In this document: one piece after another, positions 5,854 through 13,951 of the stretch
Layout of the letters: every line of letters begins with the position of its first letter
Position numbering within the stretch: the stretch's first letter is position 1
Virus record (IMG/VR): IMGVR_UViG_3300045125_000021
Coordinates: 1 to 39,295 of that record
Direction: 5' to 3' (one strand)
Source: a virus
Length of the DNA stretch: 39,295 nucleotides
Made by a program: the position numbers and the translations under genes
Notes under the pieces: generated by a model
Told to the model about the DNA's origin: nothing
Database searches by the model: none
The model's input: the letters and a program-made list of their open reading frames with translations, nothing else

Positions 5854-6279
5854 AGCGGGAATCATCCTCCCCCAGGCATCAGCCTGCCCAAGACTATTCA
5901 GCCAATGGACGAGCAGGACGAGAACATCGCTCCTGAAGAGAAGGCAACAGCCCTTCCCGAGCCTGCGGGCCACAAACTCCTGTGCATCGTGCCGGACGTC
6001 TCAGACACGTTTGAGAACTCCAGTCTGATCAAGGCCGACACGTACATGAAGCAGGAAGAACACGCCACCACGGTGCTGTTCGTGCTCAAACAAGGCCCCT
6101 CGGCCTACAAAGACCCCGAGCGTTTCCCCACGGGAGCTTGGTGTAAACCCGGAGATTTTGTGCTGGTGCGTACCTACTCGGGTACCCGGTTCAAGATTTT
6201 TGGCAAGGAGTTCCGTCTCATCAACGATGACCAAGTTGATGCTGTTGTGCAAGACCCTCGCGGACTCACCCGCGCTTGA
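5841..6279 (+). CDS. GroES-like co-chaperonin
   Basis: Likely caps the host GroEL cage to assist folding of a phage protein, most plausibly the capsid protein. The C-terminal half matches the GroES beta-barrel pattern: CKPGDFVLVRTYSGTRFKI then GKEFRLINDDQVDAVVQD, aligning with the family's 'VGDRVLF-KYAGTEVK..GEEYLIL.EDDILAV'. The N-terminal strand HKLLCIVPDVSD and a flexible loop with SSLIKAD correspond to the first strand and mobile loop; the hydrophobic part of the usual loop tripeptide is kept as LI. An extra segment of about 15 residues (YKDPERFPTGAW) lies where phage versions commonly differ from bacterial ones. Translation probably starts at ATG 5841 (MQTSEAGIIL) with a base lost in the C run near 5870; otherwise at ATG 5905. 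Ends at TGA 6279, 11 bases before the scaffold gene. Confidence 0.82.
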
Positions 6280-6290
6280 AGGAGTGAAAG

Positions 6291-7249
6291 ATGGCAATTG
6301 ACAAAGAAGAGTACAAGTTCCCTGACGAGCAGGAGAACGAAGTCGAGGTCGAGACTTCGGGTGAAACCGAAGTTGAGATTGAGGTCGTAGACGACACCCT
6401 CGAGCGAGATCGCGGGCGCAAGCCCCTGGAGCGAGAGGTTGCCGATCCGACTGACGAAGAGATCGAGTCCTACTCTGCCAACGTGCAAGTCTCGGATCAA
6501 AGAACTGACCCACGCACGTCACGACGAACGCCGTCAGAAAGAGGCTGTAGCCCGGGAAAAAGCCGAGCTTGAGCGTCTTGCACAGCAGTTGATCGACGAA
6601 AACAACCGCCTCAAGAAGAGTTACAACGAAGGCCAGGAAGTTCTGGTCTCCAGCTGCCCGCAAGGAAGCTGAAACTGAACTGGAAACTGCCCGTCGCAAA
6701 CCTTAAGAGCGGCACAGGAAGCTTTCGATACCGACGCCATCATTGCGGCCCAAGAAGAACTGGCGGCAGCTAAATGGAAAGTCGAAGAAGCAAAAAGATT
6801 CCGTCCACAGGCTTTACAGCCAACGGAAAATCCGGTACAAACTCAGCAACAACCGCAAACTCAGGTTCAACCCGACGAAAAGTCCCTGCGCTGGCAGGCA
6901 AAAAACCAGTGGTTTGGGCAACCGGGGTTTGAGGAATTCACCAGCTACGCACTAGGGCTGCATCAGAAGCTAGTCACCGGGGGTGTTGATCCCCGCTCCG
7001 ATGAGTATTTCGACCAGATCGATGGTCGCATGAAGTCGAAGTTCCCCGAACTGTTCGGGGTAACGAAGACAAGCCGAGAACGGTTGAGGTTCAAAGAAAC
7101 CCACAACGGTCGTGGCTCCCGCTACCCGTACGACGGGTGCCGGAAAAATTCGACTGACCCAAACGCAAGTTGCGTTGGCGAAGAAGCTGGGCCTGACCCC
7201 GCAGCAATACGCTGCTCAAGTGGCAAAACTGGAGAACCAAAATGGCTGA
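6291..7249 (+). CDS. Capsid scaffolding protein
   Basis: Internal scaffold that directs assembly of the prohead and is later lost. Start ATG 6291 follows GGAGTGAAAG. The sequence is very acidic at first (DEQENEVEVETSGETEVEIE), then a long charged helical coiled-coil region rich in Glu, Lys, Arg and Gln (KEAVAREKAELERLAQQLI, then EELAAAKWKVEEAKRFRP), then a Gln-rich linker and a compact C-terminal part with WFGQPGFEEFTSYALGLHQ and a final basic segment (LAKKLGLTPQQYAAQVAKL) that could bind the capsid. Acidic start, coiled coil and basic end are typical of scaffolds. Its place just before the head genes agrees. Breaks near 6490, 6650, 6705, 6790 and 7060. The last codons overlap the next start. 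Confidence 0.78.
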
Positions 7250-8361: not shown

Positions 8362-9295
8362 ATGGCAATTTCTCGTGCCCAACTACTCAAGGAACTCCTG
8401 CCCGGTCTGAACGCCCTGTTCGGTATGGAGTACGCTCGTTACGGCGAAGAGCACAAGGAAATCTACGAGACTGAGACGTCCGAGCGTTCGCTTTGAAGAA
8501 GAAACCAAGCTGGCTGGCTTCAGTGCCGCTCCGGTGAAGAACGAAGGTTCAGGCCATCGCGTATGACAATGCGCAGGAAGCCTGGACCGCTCGTTACAAC
8601 CACGAGACCATCGCTCTTGGCTTCTCGATCACCGAGGAAGCAATGGAAGACAACCTGTACGACAGTCTGTCTGCCCGCTACACCAAGGCTCTGGCCCGTG
8701 CTATGGCCTACACCAAGCAGGTTAAAGCCGCTGCCGTTCTGAACAACGGCTTCAACGGTACTTACCCTGGTGGCGACGGCGTGTCGCTGTTCGGCTACAA
8801 CTCCTGCGGCACTCGCGTGGGTCACCCCTGGTTTCCGGTGGTGTGAACTACAACAGCCCCACCGCTGGTGCTGACCTGAACGAGACTTCGCTCGAAAACG
8901 CCGTGATTCAGATCGCTGCGTGGACGGATGAACGTGGTCTGCTGATCGCTGCCAAGCCCGAGAAGCTGGTTGTTCCCCCTGCACTGATGTTCGTTGCCAA
9001 GCGCCTGCTGGACACCGAACTGCGTGTGGCTACTGCTGATAACGACATCAACGCTATCAAGCAGATGGGTGCGATCCCCGAGGGCTTACACCGTCAACCA
9101 CTTCTTGACCGACAGCAACGCTTGGTTCCTGACCACGGACGTGCCCAACGGTCTGAAGCACTTCGAGCGTGTCGCCATGTCACACCTCGATGGACGGTGA
9201 CTTCGACACCGGCAACGTCCGCTACAAGGCCCGCGAGCGTTATTCGTTCGGCTGGTCTGATCCGCTGGGTATCTGGGGTTCTGCTCGGCGCCTAA
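8362..9295 (+). CDS. Major capsid protein
   Basis: Forms the icosahedral shell. Start ATG 8362 (MAISRAQLLKELLPGLNAL) with AAGGAG upstream. Characteristic features in order: an N-terminal helix, the E-loop-like stretch GMEYARYGEEHKEIYETE, then ARYNHETIALGFSITEEAMED, LARAMAYTKQVKAAAVLNNG, SLENAVIQIAAWTDERG, KPEKLVVPPALMFVAKRLL, and the end YKARERYSFGWSDPLGIWG. This is the HK97-fold capsid pattern seen in podovirus-like and Mu-like groups (about 310 residues). Breaks lie near 8490, 8545, 8815, 9085, 9185 and 9285. It comes after the scaffold and is followed by a strong terminator, consistent with a highly expressed gene at the end of its transcript. Confidence 0.88.
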
Positions 9296-9788: not shown

Positions 9789-10291
9789 ATGGCGATGCAA
9801 TACGACGTTAAATCGACGCACCTATCTGCGTCGGGCGTGGTGGTCAGTTATCGTACGCGCATCAAGGGTGCGATTGTTTCGGCCAATGCCAGTGCTGCCA
9901 CGCGCAACACGGTGTTTGCTGACAATCTCACCCAGACGGGCACGTACGGACGCTCCACCACCACGGTTACCGTGACCATCGCCAATCACGGCCTTGCAAC
10001 GGGTGATCGGGTTTGGCTCGGCTTTGCCGCAGGTACGGGCGGTACTGCTACGACCAACGTGTATGTCGGTAACGGTGACGGGAACCAACACGTTCACGGT
10101 GACGGACACGTGCTTCTGGGACCATCACGGGCAGCCCTGCGGTGACCATGTACGCCGACATCCTGTTGGAAGCTGACTCGTACAACCCCACCGCGTTCAA
10201 CGTGATCGTTCCGGGCGAAGGCATCTTGGCACCCAACGGCATCTTTGTTGGCCTAGTGGCGAACGTCACCGCTACGGTGTTCTATGGCTAA
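9789..10291 (+). CDS. Structural protein with an FCCH-like beta module
   Basis: About 165 residues. Start ATG 9789 (MAMQYDVKSTHLSASGVVV) after TAGGAGCG. The middle carries VTIANHGLATGDRVWLGF, then, after an apparent break near 10070-10100, the module end N-T-F-T-V-T. This 'HGLxxGDxV ... NxFTVT' layout is a small beta module often inserted in phage tail and head proteins and sometimes annotated as FCCH-like. A related module occurs in the nozzle-like protein at about 28795-28925. The C-terminal part (SYNPTAFNVIVPGEGILA then GLVANVTATVFYG) is beta-rich. Its last bases overlap the start of the next gene. Role in the virion is inferred from neighbours. Confidence 0.6.
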
Positions 10292-10541
10292 GACCCCGGC
10301 ATGGCAGACGCGAAGGAAGGCAAATCGGAGAAGGGCGGCTTGAACGCCAAGGGGCGAGCCTCCTACAACGCCGCGAATCCCGGGAAGCCGGGGCTGAAGG
10401 CACCTCAGCCGGAGGGCGGTCCACGCCGCGACTCTTTTCTGCGCCCGTATGAAAGGGATGAAGAAGAAGCTCACGAGCGAAAAGACCGCCAACGATCCGA
10501 ATTCGAGGATTAACAAATCCTTGCGCGCATGGAAGTGCTGA
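10284..10541 (+). CDS. Small basic protein, DUF6321-like
   Basis: About 85 residues. The likely start is ATG 10284 (MAKTPAWQ), overlapping the previous stop, with a frame break near 10308; an alternative ATG is at 10301. The body reads KSEKGGLNAKGRASYNAANP, then LKAPQPEGGPRRDSF, then after a second break near 10435 CARMKGMKKKLTSEK, TANDPNSRINKSLRAWKC. 'GGLNxxGRxxYN', 'LKxPQPEGGxRRxSFCARMxGMKKK' and 'ANDPxSRINxSLRxW' are the hallmarks of a small domain of unknown function common in phages. It is strongly basic, which would suit nucleic-acid contact or packing inside the head, but that is inference. First of a run of small Lys/Gly-rich proteins. Confidence 0.72.
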
Positions 10542-10752
10542 AATGGGACAGCATCAAGATACCGTCAAGAACACGCTAGACATCATTGGCTGCGATTGCC
10601 GCCATTTCGTCGTTCTTGCAGTTGCTCACGCCAGTGTTTGGTCTGATCGGTGCCATCTGGACGCTCATGACGTATTGCAGAGATGGTGACCGGTGAAGTC
10701 GTTTGCGGACTTAATCCGTCGAAAGAAAGACGACGATGCCGAGCCAAAGTAA
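10529..10752 (+). CDS. Small membrane protein, possible holin
   Basis: About 73 residues. ATG 10529 lies inside the end of the previous gene and gives MEVLKWDSIK. After one-base breaks it reads TVKNTLDIIG, then AIAAISSFLQLLTPVFGLI and GAIWTLM, a long hydrophobic segment able to span the membrane once or as a hairpin, and a very charged tail (RRKKDDDAEPK) ending at TAA 10752. A short amphipathic start, one hydrophobic hairpin and a charged end are typical of small phage holins or related inner-membrane proteins. A better holin candidate (26776) lies beside the endolysin, so this may be a second holin or an unrelated membrane protein. The stop overlaps the next start by 17 bases. Confidence 0.5.
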
Positions 10753-10960
10753 AGCACAGCACAACCTGATGGCGATGGTGGCCAATGACCCGGCTGCTGC
10801 CAAGCGCACGGGTATTCCGCAGTCTGTTGGCGCTAGAGTTCATGAAGGCCGACAAAGGCCGCAAGTTTGGCTCTGGAGTCGTGCAGACGTTCAGTCCATC
10901 AACAAGCCGAAGACCGAGCACGGCAAGTCGGCAATTGCTTGCAAAGAGGTGGTGACGTGA
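10736..10960 (+). CDS. Small basic conserved protein
   Basis: About 75 residues. Start ATG 10736 (MPSQSKAQHNLMAMVANDP) overlaps the preceding gene. It continues AAAKRTGIPQSVG, then after a break FMKADKGRKFG and, in another frame, ADVQSINKPKTEHGKSA. The opening 'MPSxSKAQxxxMxMV' is a conserved start seen in many small phage and bacterial proteins of unknown function. It is Lys-rich with no hydrophobic core of any length, so probably helical and nucleic-acid or protein binding. The end at TGA 10960 is uncertain: the sequence might run on into the next gene if one base were corrected near 10945. Part of the small basic protein run. Confidence 0.55.
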   Translation: MPSQSKAQHNLMAMVANDPAAAKRTGIPQSVGARVHEGRQRPQVWLWSRADVQSINKPKTEHGKSAIACKEVVT

Positions 10961-11228
10961 AAGAGTCCAAGGCAATGATGAAGAAGGAGGTCGGCTTTAT
11001 GAAGAAGGCTGGCGCCCCCCAGTTCGATGATCAAACATGAGGAAGTCCGAAATGAAGGGCATGAAGAAGATGGCTACTGGTGGCATCACCAAGGCCAAGA
11101 TGGGTACTGTTAAGACCGCTGCTCCTAGCCGCGACGGTGTGGCCACCAAGGGCAAGACCAAGGGCACGATGGTCAAGATGGCCTGCAAGCAAGCCCGTCT
11201 GGGCATGAAGTACGGCGGAAAGTGCTGA
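10957..11228 (+). CDS. Small Lys/Met/Gly-rich basic protein with an MATGG motif
   Basis: About 90 residues. GTG 10957 starts VKESKAMMKKEVGFMKKAG; after a break near 11015 (GAPKSMIKH) the frame runs cleanly through MKGMKKMATGGITKAKMG, TVKTAAPSRDGVATKGKTKG and TMVKMACKQARLGMKYGGKC to TGA 11228. About a quarter of the residues are lysine, and methionine and glycine are frequent. The MATGG segment (11070-11084) is one of the [MYLF]-A-x-G-G motifs discussed in the findings, and DGVATKGKTKGTM is a second motif with weaker echoes in two neighbouring small proteins. I do not know a function. A highly basic small protein in a head-to-tail gene block could coat DNA or cement the head. Confidence 0.6.
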
Positions 11229-11229
11229 C

Positions 11230-11522
11230 ATGATGCCGAGCCGGGGGATGGGGGCTATCGCCCCTCCAAGATGCCCAAGAAGAAGGTCATCCGTCGCAAG
11301 GATGACCCGAATGACGTTGACATGTACGCCGAAGGCGGGACCACCAAGTCCAAGGTCAACGAAGCGGGCAACTACACCAAACCGGGCATGCGCAAATCGC
11401 TGTTTGAGTCCATCAAGGCTCAGGCAACGCAAGGCACGGCGGCAGGTCAGTGGAGCGCCCGCAAGGCACAGCTTCTGGCCAAGAAGTACAAGGCCAAAGG
11501 GCGGCGAGGTTATCGTGGCTGA
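11230..11522 (+). CDS. Small basic protein with a YAEGG motif
   Basis: About 96 residues. ATG 11230 lies one base after the previous stop: MMPSRGMGAIAP, then, after a one-base break near 11270, MPKKKVIRRKDDPNDVDMYA. It continues AEGGTTKSKVNEAGNYTKPG, MRKSLFESIKAQATQGTAAG and QWSARKAQLLAKKYKAKG, ending at TGA 11522. The block 'AGNYTKPGMRKxLFxxIKA...GTxAGQWSARKAQxLAKKYKxxGGGY' is a conserved small domain of unknown function in phages. YAEGG at 11325-11339 belongs to the repeated [MYLF]-A-x-G-G set. The basic helix-rich end suggests nucleic-acid or tail/head contact, which is inference. Confidence 0.65.
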
Positions 11523-11938
11523 GACAGAAACTCAAGAACGAACGCCGCTTCGGAAGAGAAAGAGGCCGAGAATCTTGGTCCTTTAACATCACTACGCCGA
11601 CCCGTTGGGCCGATTTTCGGGCAAGTTAGCCAACATGCTAACTGCGGGGATGTGGACGAGCAGGGCTACGGTACCGCTAGACACCCCGGGGCGGTTTATG
11701 CTGGGGATCAGTTAGCAACAAAATTTTTGACACAGAAGGCAAACACGTCCTTGAGGCGCTAACTGATCCTCGTGTACGGCAGCTCAGGGCGAGCAGCGGC
11801 GGCAGAACAGCAGCGCCGCGAGGATAAAGAGCCGCGCAAATATGCCAAAGGCGGCTCCCGTATCCTCTGCATCCAGAGCGTGCCGATGGTATGCACCAAC
11901 GTGGTAAAACCCGTTGGGCAGCAGATTCGGTGCGCTAA
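11515..11938 (+). CDS. Hypothetical protein with a YAKGG motif, frameshifted
   Basis: Not recognised. GTG 11515 overlaps the end of the previous gene. Readable pieces in different frames are PLGRFSGKLANMLTAGM, EQGYGTA near 11660, FDTEGKHVLEALTDPRVRQL (about 11730-11780), EQQRREDKEPRKYAKGGS (11803-11858), then RADGMHQRGKTRWAADSV before TAA 11938. The intact product would be about 140 residues: a helical N-terminal half, a charged linker and a short basic end. YAKGG (11841-11855) again fits the [MYLF]-A-x-G-G pattern, and ADG-x3-RGKTR resembles the DGVATKGKTKG segment of the 10957 gene. At least six breaks in 424 bases make the exact limits weak. Confidence 0.45.
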
Positions 11939-12153
11939 GCCTCAGCAGCAAACGCTTGAAGGATCTTGCGAACCGGGCAGAAGTGGAGGACCAAGTGGTA
12001 AACCGTCTAGTAAAACTGGTGAGCGATACCTTCCAGAGGCCTTGATCAAGAGTCTTTCCTCCAAGAGTACGCCGCCCAACCCGAGCAAAACGAGCAGGCA
12101 AAGCCTCCGGCAAGCAGTTCGTAGCCCAACCTGGTAGCCATATAGCCAAGTAG
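11939..12153 (+). CDS. Small basic protein, KTGERYLPEA type
   Basis: A short gene of about 70 residues without a clear start codon, presumably lost to a base error near 11940-11970. The readable core is KTGERYLPEALIKSLSS, then in another frame EYAA, RAKRAGKASGKQFVAQPG and SHIAK before TAG 12153. 'TGExYLxxxxIxxLxxxEYAAxxRAKRxGxASGKQFVxQP' is a small conserved domain of unknown function found among phage structural genes. It is basic and helix-rich, like its neighbours. It ends 16 bases before the connector gene. The coding call rests on this conserved pattern; the left limit is arbitrary. Confidence 0.45.
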
Positions 12154-12169
12154 ATCCGCAGAGATTCAG

Positions 12170-13125
12170 ATGACTACATCAGGCGTATCCAGTTTTGACC
12201 TCGATCCTCACGAGATCGTCGAGGAGGCGTTTGAACGTGCGGGTGCGGAACTCCGAACGGGCTACGACCTGCGCACCGCTCGCCGTAGCCTTAACTTGCT
12301 GTTTGCTGATTGGGGTAATCGCGGCGTCAACATGTGGACGTTTGAGCAGCGCGTTATCACCCTGGCTACGGGACAACCGACATACGCGCTACCGGACGAC
12401 ACGGTAGACCTGCTGGATCATGTGATCCGCACTGGCGCCCAACGTCCCCGAACAACCAAGCCGACCTGACCATCACCCGGATCAGCGTCAGCACCTACGC
12501 CACCATCCCCAACAAGCTGATCACAGGGCCGTCCGATTCAGGTCTACATCCAGCGCTTGACGGCGCAGGAGAACTTGATGAGCATCACAGGTGGCAGCGC
12601 CTGGGGCAAACAGCACGACCACGTCGATTCCCGTATCGTCGGTCAACAACATCCCGAATGCGGGCTTCATCCGCATCGGCACCGAACTGATCTTCTACAA
12701 CGAGTACCAGCCTGCGGCTGACGGCAACCCTGCTTACCTGTTGAACTGCTGCCGTGGCCAGGACGGGACGACCGCTGCAAGCCACGCGGCAAGTGCGCCG
12801 ATCTACCTGTCGCAGAAGAACAGCATCACGGTCTGGCCAACGCCTGATCCTGGTCAGACGTATCAGTTCGTCTACTGGCGCATGCGCCGCATGCAGGACG
12901 CCGGTGGTGGCGTCAAGACGATGGATGTGCCGTTCCGTTTCCTGCCAGCCTTGTGGTCCGGTCTGGCTTACTACATCGCCCTGAAGATTCCTGATGGGCT
13001 GCAGCGCTTGGACGTGCTGAAGCAGCAGTACGACGAGGCGTGGCATGATCGCCGCAGGCGAAGATCAAGAGAAGGCGGCGGTGCGGTTTGTGCCCCGGCA
13101 GATGTTCATCGGGAGCGGTACCTAA
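12170..13125 (+). CDS. Head-tail connector or tail tubular A-like protein
   Basis: About 318 residues. ATG 12170 starts MTTSGVSSFDLDPHEIVEEA, then FERAGAELRTGYDLRTARRS and LNLLFADWGNRGVNMWTFEQ, the helical N-terminal part typical of connector or tubular proteins placed below the portal. A central beta module (about 12595-12820) contains SIPVSSVNNIPNAGFIRIG and ELIFYNEYQPA, with a CCRGQDGTTAA segment. The C-terminal part, VWPTPDPGQTYQFVYWRMRR then DVPFRFLPALWSGLAYYIA, returns to the helical fold. It ends RFVPRQMFIGSGT at TAA 13125, with the next ATG immediately following. Breaks occur near 12440, 12530, 12600 and 13050. Likely a ring linking portal to tail; which ring exactly is not certain because a second adaptor candidate follows at 13955. 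Confidence 0.7.
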
Positions 13126-13554
13126 ATGGGTAACCGGTTCTCATCCGGCAAGAACGCGATTGCGCAGTGTGATCGCTGCGACTTTCGGTTCAAGCTACAC
13201 CAGCTTCGCCGGGAGGTTATCAAGACCAAGAACTATGAACTCTTGGTCTGCCGCATTTGTTGGGACCCAGACCAACCGCAGTTGCAGTTGGGCATGTACC
13301 CGGTGGACGACCCACAGGGCGTGCGCAACCCAAGGCCGGATCGAAGCTACACGCAGTCGGGCAACACAGGACTTCAAGTCGTCGATACAACGGCGACCAC
13401 GCAAGACGCGGTGGGCTTCCCTAGTGAAGGCAGCCGGGACTTCCAGTGGGGCTGGAATCCGGTTGGTGGTTCTCGCGGCCCTGACGCAGGTTTGACGCCA
13501 AATAACTTGGTGTTGACCATTCAAGTTGGTACAGTCACGGTTGTGACGGCATAG
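13126..13554 (+). CDS. Zinc-ribbon conserved phage protein
   Basis: A clean open reading frame of 142 residues, ATG directly after the previous stop. The N-terminal third has two cysteine pairs, CDRC (about residues 18-21) and CRIC (43-46), spaced like a zinc ribbon, in a basic context (FRFKLHQLRREVIKTKNYEL). The middle is proline- and asparagine-rich (YPVDDPQGVRNPRPDRSY), and the C-terminal part is beta-prone with Val/Thr repeats (VLTIQVGTVTVVTA). Zinc-ribbon proteins of this length recur next to the connector gene in related phages. A role in tail assembly or in DNA contact is possible; the sequence does not decide. It is one of few genes here without a frame break. Confidence 0.7.
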   Translation: MGNRFSSGKNAIAQCDRCDFRFKLHQLRREVIKTKNYELLVCRICWDPDQPQLQLGMYPVDDPQGVRNPRPDRSYTQSGNTGLQVVDTTATTQDAVGFPSEGSRDFQWGWNPVGGSRGPDAGLTPNNLVLTIQVGTVTVVTA

Positions 13555-13563
13555 GAGCAGAAA

Positions 13564-13749
13564 ATGGCAGGCGTTAAAGAAATGCTGAAGCAAGCACATG
13601 GCCAAGGGCGCAGGCAGCGCATCCTGCATGCCGATGTGAAGAAAATGCGTGCGGGTGGCAAGACCAACAGCGACATGCTGAAGATGGGTCGCAATCTGGC
13701 CAAGGTTGCCAACCAAAAGTCGCCTGGTCGCAAGCAGAAGGGGGTCTGA
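13564..13749 (+). CDS. Small basic protein, KKMRAGGK type
   Basis: 61 residues, intact. ATG 13564 is preceded by AGGAGCAG. The sequence is almost entirely helical and basic: MAGVKEMLKQAHGQGRRQRI, then LHADVKKMRAGGKTNSDMLK and GRNLAKVANQKSPGRKQKG. About a third of the residues are Lys, Arg or His. MRAGG (13645-13659) is a near match to the [MYLF]-A-x-G-G motif, with the Ala one place later. I know of no function. Together with the neighbouring 66-residue gene it forms a tight pair (one base apart) between the zinc-ribbon protein and the adaptor. Confidence 0.7.
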   Translation: MAGVKEMLKQAHGQGRRQRILHADVKKMRAGGKTNSDMLKMGRNLAKVANQKSPGRKQKGV

Positions 13750-13750
13750 C

Positions 13751-13951
13751 ATGGCAACCTACAAGACTCCCAAGACTGTCGCAACGCCTGTTGTTGGCGC
13801 TGACGACATCAAGAAGACACTGCGCGACACCAACATGTCTGTGGCCAACATGCACTCCAACGAGTACAAGGGCACGAAGACTGACGGTATCAAGATTCGC
13901 GGCACTGGCTGCGCCACTAAAGGCGTGATGGCTCGTGGCCCGATGGCCTAA
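13751..13951 (+). CDS. Small conserved basic protein, MATYKTPK type
   Basis: 66 residues, intact; ATG 13751 lies one base after the previous stop. It reads MATYKTPKTVATPVVGADDI, KKTLRDTNMSVANMHSNEYK, GTKTDGIKIRGTGCATKGVM, ARGPMA. The C-terminal TDGIKIRG-TGCATKGVMARG resembles the DGVATKGKTKGTM segment of the protein at 10957 and, more weakly, ADG-x3-RGKTR at 11905: a shared D-G-x-x-x-(K/R)-G pattern followed by Thr and further basic residues. No function known to me. The lack of a hydrophobic core and the many Lys, Thr and Gly residues suggest a flexible or partner-folded virion protein. Confidence 0.7.
   Translation: MATYKTPKTVATPVVGADDIKKTLRDTNMSVANMHSNEYKGTKTDGIKIRGTGCATKGVMARGPMA

Follow-up and report, generated by a model that had tools for sequence, protein, structure and literature searches.

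The question raised by this locus is what a run of very small, highly basic proteins has in common, and what such proteins might be doing among the head genes of a virus. The run occupies positions 10284-13951 of an IMG/VR viral record of 39,295 bases (IMGVR_UViG_3300045125_000021), the whole of which was analysed and is referred to here as the window; clean relatives were used for reading its genes. Two genes of the run carry copies of an element that, in related viruses, forms the extreme C-terminus of many small proteins and is linked to one lineage of capsid genes. This element, here called the tag, is tentatively interpreted as a signal that would dock its carriers into the assembling head.

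A portable C-terminal tag

The first-pass annotation of the window had reported a segment, D-G-x3-K/R-G, shared by genes called at 10957 and 13751 and echoed in a gene at 11515. The bare segment is not significant alone, because five of its eight occurrences in the six frames of the window lie outside the run. The extended element is real and conserved at 11133 (DGVATKGKTKGTM) and 11885 (DGMHQRGKTR); the resemblance between 10957 and 11515 was therefore genuine and forms part of a C-terminal tag, while the link to 13751 proved weak. In relatives, a longer element, DG-x3-[KR]-GKT-[KR]-G-x-M, was found at the extreme C-terminus of many small genes, within a consensus of about 25 residues, K-G-G-x(2-10)-R-A-D-G-[I/C]-A-x-[R/K]-G-K-T-[R/K]-G-[K/R]-M-[VYIC]-COOH, also written with M-V-COOH as its end.

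The motif was present in 433 distinct open reading frames (ORFs) from all loci, 254 of which ended exactly four residues past it, and among IMG/VR proteins it lay no more than eight residues from the end in 280; an additional 16 ORFs terminated in ...GKTRA. Once the tag was cut off, blastp grouped the N-terminal parts into 118 clusters (121 when masking was off), the largest of which (n=76) started with the hydrophobic segment LAGLAALGALGYM. The median local BLOSUM62 score of random pairs was 73 for the tag, compared with 16 for the 24 residues upstream and 16 for shuffled upstream sequence. All 280 carriers had a pI above 9 (median 10.0) and low hydrophobicity. The search expression fixed D, G, [KR]G, [KHR][TS] and [KRC], where invariance exists by construction, and the argument rests on the unfixed positions and on the upstream comparison. 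By these sequence comparisons the shared element is a portable tag and not the mark of a family of homologous proteins, an arrangement suggestive of docking or sorting. What had been listed as a shared segment is recognized here as a portable C-terminal tag on scores of unrelated proteins.

Searches of cultivated phages by tblastn with the tag, or with the C-terminal half of the gene at 10736, gave no match, and nothing meaningful was found when the tag, DUF6321 (see below), the capsid profile, the 10736 gene and the 13751 protein were compared with PDB sequences. Literature searches for DUF6321, RGKTRG or small lysine-rich phage proteins found nothing relevant.

Codon-position entropy within the tag was 0.75, 0.70 and 1.58 bits at positions 1, 2 and 3, respectively. 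At R-2, A-1 and A+3 the residue was kept while the codon varied; the entropies of amino acid and codon were 0.85 and 2.38 bits at R-2, and 0.79 and 2.36 bits at A-1, both of which the search had left unfixed. Because unfixed residues are kept while third codon positions vary, the tag is under protein-level constraint. An alternative at the DNA level is that the conserved 3' ends are a ribosome-binding or recombination site whose translation is incidental. In 239 of 254 tagged genes the next start indeed lay only a few bases from the stop (overlapping or adjacent), and the glycine at position 10 was encoded by GGA or GGG in 147 of 251 tags, compared with 25 and 12 for the other two glycines. 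Judged from these codons, the end of the tag also encodes the Shine-Dalgarno sequence of the next gene, so that the 3' end does double duty. Synonymous sites are nevertheless free, and the amino acids are kept also upstream of the Shine-Dalgarno sequence, at unfixed positions. The overlap accounts for the choice of end codons but not for the tag, and a cause at the DNA level was rejected as having next to no probability.

In AlphaFold2 models of two different carriers the tag is predicted to be disordered. A homologue of the 10736 gene (A3, 53 sequences) had a helical N-terminus (residues 1-40) with a predicted local distance difference test score (pLDDT) of about 90, compared with < 50 for its tag; in a protein composed of DUF6321 and the tag, DUF6321 was modelled with moderate confidence and the tag was again disordered (pLDDT < 50). 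A terminal peptide that is predicted to be unfolded and yet is conserved would resemble a docking motif. The tag also fits the GxxxxGKT pattern of a Walker A motif, but a P-loop NTPase was rejected: H or R stands in place of K in 14 of 251 tags, and the tag is terminal and predicted to be disordered. Profile searches found no NTPase fold or family match for the carriers.

Association of the tag with one lineage of capsid genes

A degenerate tag pattern occurred in at least 120 stretches of viral contigs, compared with nine in cellular genomes totalling 257 Gb. The cellular matches look like phage contigs in genome bins, because four of the five tag-bearing bins checked also contain the capsid gene. 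The same capsid protein was encoded in 27 of 30 tag-bearing viral records, and in the other three the tags lay at the end of the contig beyond which the capsid gene would be expected. When loci were selected by capsid gene, 19 of the 24 with at least 5 kb downstream contained a tag; inspection of the remaining five revealed variant tags in most (RADGIAKRGRTHCKIC in L295, ANGCAVRGKTRGKIC in L279) and none in L236. All 49 tags in these capsid-first loci lay between the capsid and adaptor genes, and the distance from the end of the capsid gene to the end of the tagged gene was 1.3-6.0 kb over all capsid loci. The profile searches behind this linkage are independent of the search expression. Among seven cultivated relatives, the tag was found only in the Planktothrix phage Pag-Yong1, on a 308-residue protein (UMO75986.1).

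Proposed head docking and its alternatives

Our preferred reading, which is held tentatively, is that the run encodes head-associated accessory proteins and that the shared tag is a docking signal into the assembling head. A few portable basic modules would be combined into such proteins, the unfolded basic tag of about 25 residues would dock them to the assembling head, and the docked carriers would be packaged, and might be ejected along with the DNA. In favour of this reading are the portability of the tag, its conservation as protein, its terminal position, its predicted disorder and its linkage to one lineage of capsid genes and to the interval between capsid and adaptor. A further point in favour is that DUF6321, the family of the first gene of the run, is the C-terminal domain of ORF29 of phage S-SCSM1 (517 residues), which is annotated 'virion protein' and comes from a phage in which mass spectrometry identified 45 virion proteins (PMC9602691). 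The tag could bind the capsid protein or the portal/adaptor, or else an acidic arm at the N-terminus of a scaffold-like protein. The last is plausible from its sequence; the median charge over the N-terminal 60 residues is -14 in 98 homologues, which complements the basic carriers.

Two known systems offer analogies. The capsid-targeting sequence of phage T4 is N-terminal and is cleaved by the prohead protease. It is all that the diverse internal proteins of T4 have in common, and it directs them into the scaffolding core (PMC3012670). The tag is likewise a short terminal peptide common to very diverse proteins of one phage lineage, but it lies at the opposite end, as the 254 ORFs ending four residues past the motif illustrate, and is apparently retained. 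No Peptidase_S78 was found in ten records. In encapsulins, a short C-terminal cargo-loading peptide is found on unrelated cargo encoded beside an HK97-fold shell gene (PMC7355545). The tag is C-terminal, has unrelated carriers and lies 1.3-6 kb downstream of a capsid gene whose HK97 fold is putative, being taken from a PHROG/annotation name. Encapsulin peptides are about ten residues long, fit into a hydrophobic pocket and serve to load enzymes, whereas the tag is about 25 residues long, basic and viral, and its binding to the shell is putative. By analogy, the best reading is that the tag would work like the T4 capsid-targeting sequence or the encapsulin loading peptides while being a member of neither. 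A more specific version, possible but doubtful, makes it an uncleaved C-terminal peptide for loading the heads of a large, globally common phage lineage. It would be the viral equivalent of encapsulin cargo signals and would package an interchangeable set of small proteins that enter the host together with the DNA, as the internal anti-restriction proteins of T4 do.

By one sequence rule, scores of mini-proteins without annotation, from aquatic phages that are very common, can be grouped, and what was 'hypothetical protein' noise becomes a system open to testing, namely a portable tag linked to one capsid lineage. If the tag loads heads, the cargo of these viruses would be identifiable from sequence alone, and a C-terminal loading signal could be used in engineered capsids as a handle for finding and loading cargo. 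The cultivation of tag-bearing Pag-Yong1 makes testing feasible.

Several observations weigh against head docking. Virion proteomics was found neither for any tagged protein nor for this capsid lineage. S-SCSM1 ORF29 has DUF6321 and not the tag, and the main text of the study does not name it. The tag is not essential to this capsid, because several cultivated relatives with the same capsid (HTVC023P, HTVC027P, CRP-902, DSL-LC04, RW and QDWS535) have no recognizable tag. Part of the linkage to the capsid gene may come from common descent of the gene block and not from physical binding, and charge complementarity between scaffold and carriers is generic electrostatics.

The carriers could instead condense packaged DNA in a protamine-like manner, in which case the tag would simply be a basic peptide that binds DNA or RNA; condensing of DNA and binding of RNA had been among the suggestions of the first-pass annotation. 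The pI and low hydrophobicity of all 280 carriers and the predicted disorder of the modelled ones would suit such a role, but the conservation of the tag (D, G, G, T and the C-terminal position) is far more specific than charge requires and differs from that of ordinary disordered tails, equally basic residues upstream are not conserved and DNA-binding families were unmatched in profile searches; we consider nucleic-acid binding unlikely. It is distinctly unlikely that the carriers are small early or mid proteins acting on the host, the tag being a localization or interaction signal in the infected cell. Their variable N-termini do recall a diversified accessory repertoire, and one large group has the hydrophobic N-terminal segment LAGLAALGALGYM, but tags always lie in the late structural block, from capsid to adaptor, and are packed tightly against their neighbours. 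External decoration, in which varied N-terminal parts would be anchored by the tag on the outside of capsid or cement, is very unlikely. A common anchor with a variable display part is the anatomy to be expected, and it is tied to one capsid lineage, yet the N-termini are basic, mostly disordered and without recognized binding domains, and a cement-type protein is already encoded in the block. The earlier suggestion that the small proteins are cement peptides is unlikely because of this separate cement-type gene of about 166 residues at 9789-10288.

Corrected gene content and other portable modules

Frameshifts are frequent across the whole window (e.g. 8362-9285, 6291-7246) and most genes are broken, which is consistent with an uncorrected long-read contig; nearly all short frames of the region are unreliable because the window is so ridden with frameshifts. 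Gene corrections were made by aligning two clean loci (L003 and L009) to the window, an assignment that leaves out 10551-10735. The resulting features are listed below, together with a co-chaperonin frame.

5905-6279: GroES-like co-chaperonin frame, upstream of the scaffold-like gene
6291-7246, plus strand: scaffold-like protein of 317 residues with acidic N-terminus, candidate receptor of the tag (from alignment of clean relatives)
8362-9285, plus strand: major capsid protein of the HTVC023P / Pag-Yong1 / DSL-LC04 lineage, in three frameshift pieces (from alignment of clean relatives)
9789-10288, plus strand: cement-type protein of 166 residues, by position and analogy
10284-10547, plus strand: DUF6321 mini-protein of about 84 residues, frameshifted in the window (Pfam PF19846; aligned clean homologues)
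10736-11228, plus strand: one gene of about 163 residues with a PQSVG-type N-terminal module (phrog_16759), helical middle, internal form of the GKT tag and tail ...KPLGMKxGGKC
11130-11180, plus strand: tag element RDGVATKGKTKGTMVKM within the preceding gene
11230-11521, plus strand: basic protein of 96 residues with conserved C-terminus GQWSARKAQLLAKQYKAKGGGYRD (phrog_17747), one frameshift
about 11515-11938, plus strand: tagged gene with several frameshifts, C-terminus after the frameshift YAKGGS..SSAS.RADGMHQRGKTRWAADSVR-stop
11879-11938, plus strand: C-terminal tag of the preceding gene
about 11935-12173, plus strand: basic protein of about 75 residues, SLKDW..KWRTKSGKPSSKTGERYLPE... (phrog_14910), ends approximate
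12170-13122, plus strand: SU10-adaptor-like adaptor, downstream limit of the tagged zone
13126-13554: CxxC protein
13564-13749, plus strand: basic protein of 61 residues, core RAGGKTNSDMLKMGRxLAKVANQ
13751-13951, plus strand: protein of 66 residues with a second, distinct conserved C-terminus, KT[SD]GIK[IMV]RGTG[AC]ATKGxMARGPM[AG]

The first-pass description held in the clean homologues: the genes that separate capsid/cement from tail are very small, closely packed, strongly basic and poor in hydrophobic residues (pI 9.7-10.9, G+K+R 28-40 %, VILFWY 11-18 %), and the proteins, said to look disordered, are largely so and do lie within the structural gene block. Six to eight genes had been called; their kind was right and their boundaries were not. 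Seven small basic genes stay in the run after correction, which did not merge them into one or two larger genes, and they are split five plus two, the last two being placed beyond the adaptor and the CxxC protein. The supposedly separate genes at 10736 and 10957 are two halves of one gene, the call at 11230 forms a single gene with the 11271 frame, and the protein at 11939 had been read in the wrong frame, the true product containing KWRTKSGKPSSKTGERYLPE. At 11515 the 5' end was real and the call too short, as the tag-bearing gene runs to 11938. Relatives of the 11037 frame found by tblastn numbered at least 436 confirmed, the best being 85 % identical among the matches listed.

Profile searches, proposed for each protein, matched PF19846, phrog_16759, phrog_17747 and phrog_14910. 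The 11230 gene matched phrog_17747 (E 4e-25) and the N-terminus of the 10736 gene matched phrog_16759 (E 1.5e-11), both profiles of unknown function and without the tag. In phiKZ-like jumbo phages this N-terminal module is found as a gene of 58 residues (L221 3001-3177; phiKZ PHIKZ165.1). In phage DSL-LC04, the gene at the position of 9789-10288 bears the annotation 'cement protein'. The seven cultivated relatives that were examined each have an annotated GroES gene at the place of the GroES-like frame, before the scaffold-like gene, and the order portal-GroES-scaffold-capsid is kept in Planktothrix, Pelagibacter, Roseobacter, Alcaligenes and Caulobacter phages of this capsid lineage (L091-L097).

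The 10284 gene is a member of PF19846 (36.4 bits; cut-off 28.5), a family of unknown function that stands alone in the window, is C-terminal to larger proteins in cyanophages and is followed by the GKT tag in relatives. DUF6321 was found in 530 cultivated phages, mostly cyanomyoviruses, and forms the C-terminal end of eight PHROGs of 99-928 residues. In P-SCSP1o it is an 84-residue gene directly between the capsid and tail-tube genes, as in the window. The tag stood immediately behind WxC in 15 of 77 DUF6321 C-termini, and one locus (L135) had a 10736-type N-terminal module fused to DUF6321. A Foldseek search with the DUF6321 model gave no PDB match, and in the viral library only DUF6321 proteins. 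S-SZBM1_190, a virion protein by mass spectrometry, does not contain DUF6321. Syn9 gp114 and S-SCSM1 ORF29 are chains of several basic modules, some of which resemble separate small genes of HTVC023P. No SFCAR-type module was found at 60-84 kb of S-CREM2.

The 13751 protein was tried as a bearer of the same tag and not supported by the tag profile, which did not significantly recognize the copy at 13883 (DGIKIRGTGCATKGVM). This sequence belongs to a different conserved C-terminus, KTSGIKxRGTGAATKGxMARGPMA, which follows variable N-termini in 92 distinct proteins of the loci examined, including 13751. Possible further C-terminal tags on basic proteins were seen in DSL-LC04 (L093 5640-6245, KGGLVTSKGQGRVIRSKKTRIC) and HTVC023P (L092 15698-16081, GGGAAVRGMGFKGVF). 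Cyanophage proteins (L218 1702-3255 and L219 2903-4234) consist of strings of basic Cys/Trp modules (SLxxWF, WPSAYASGALVKCRK and DUF6321), some of which are separate small genes in pelagiphages.

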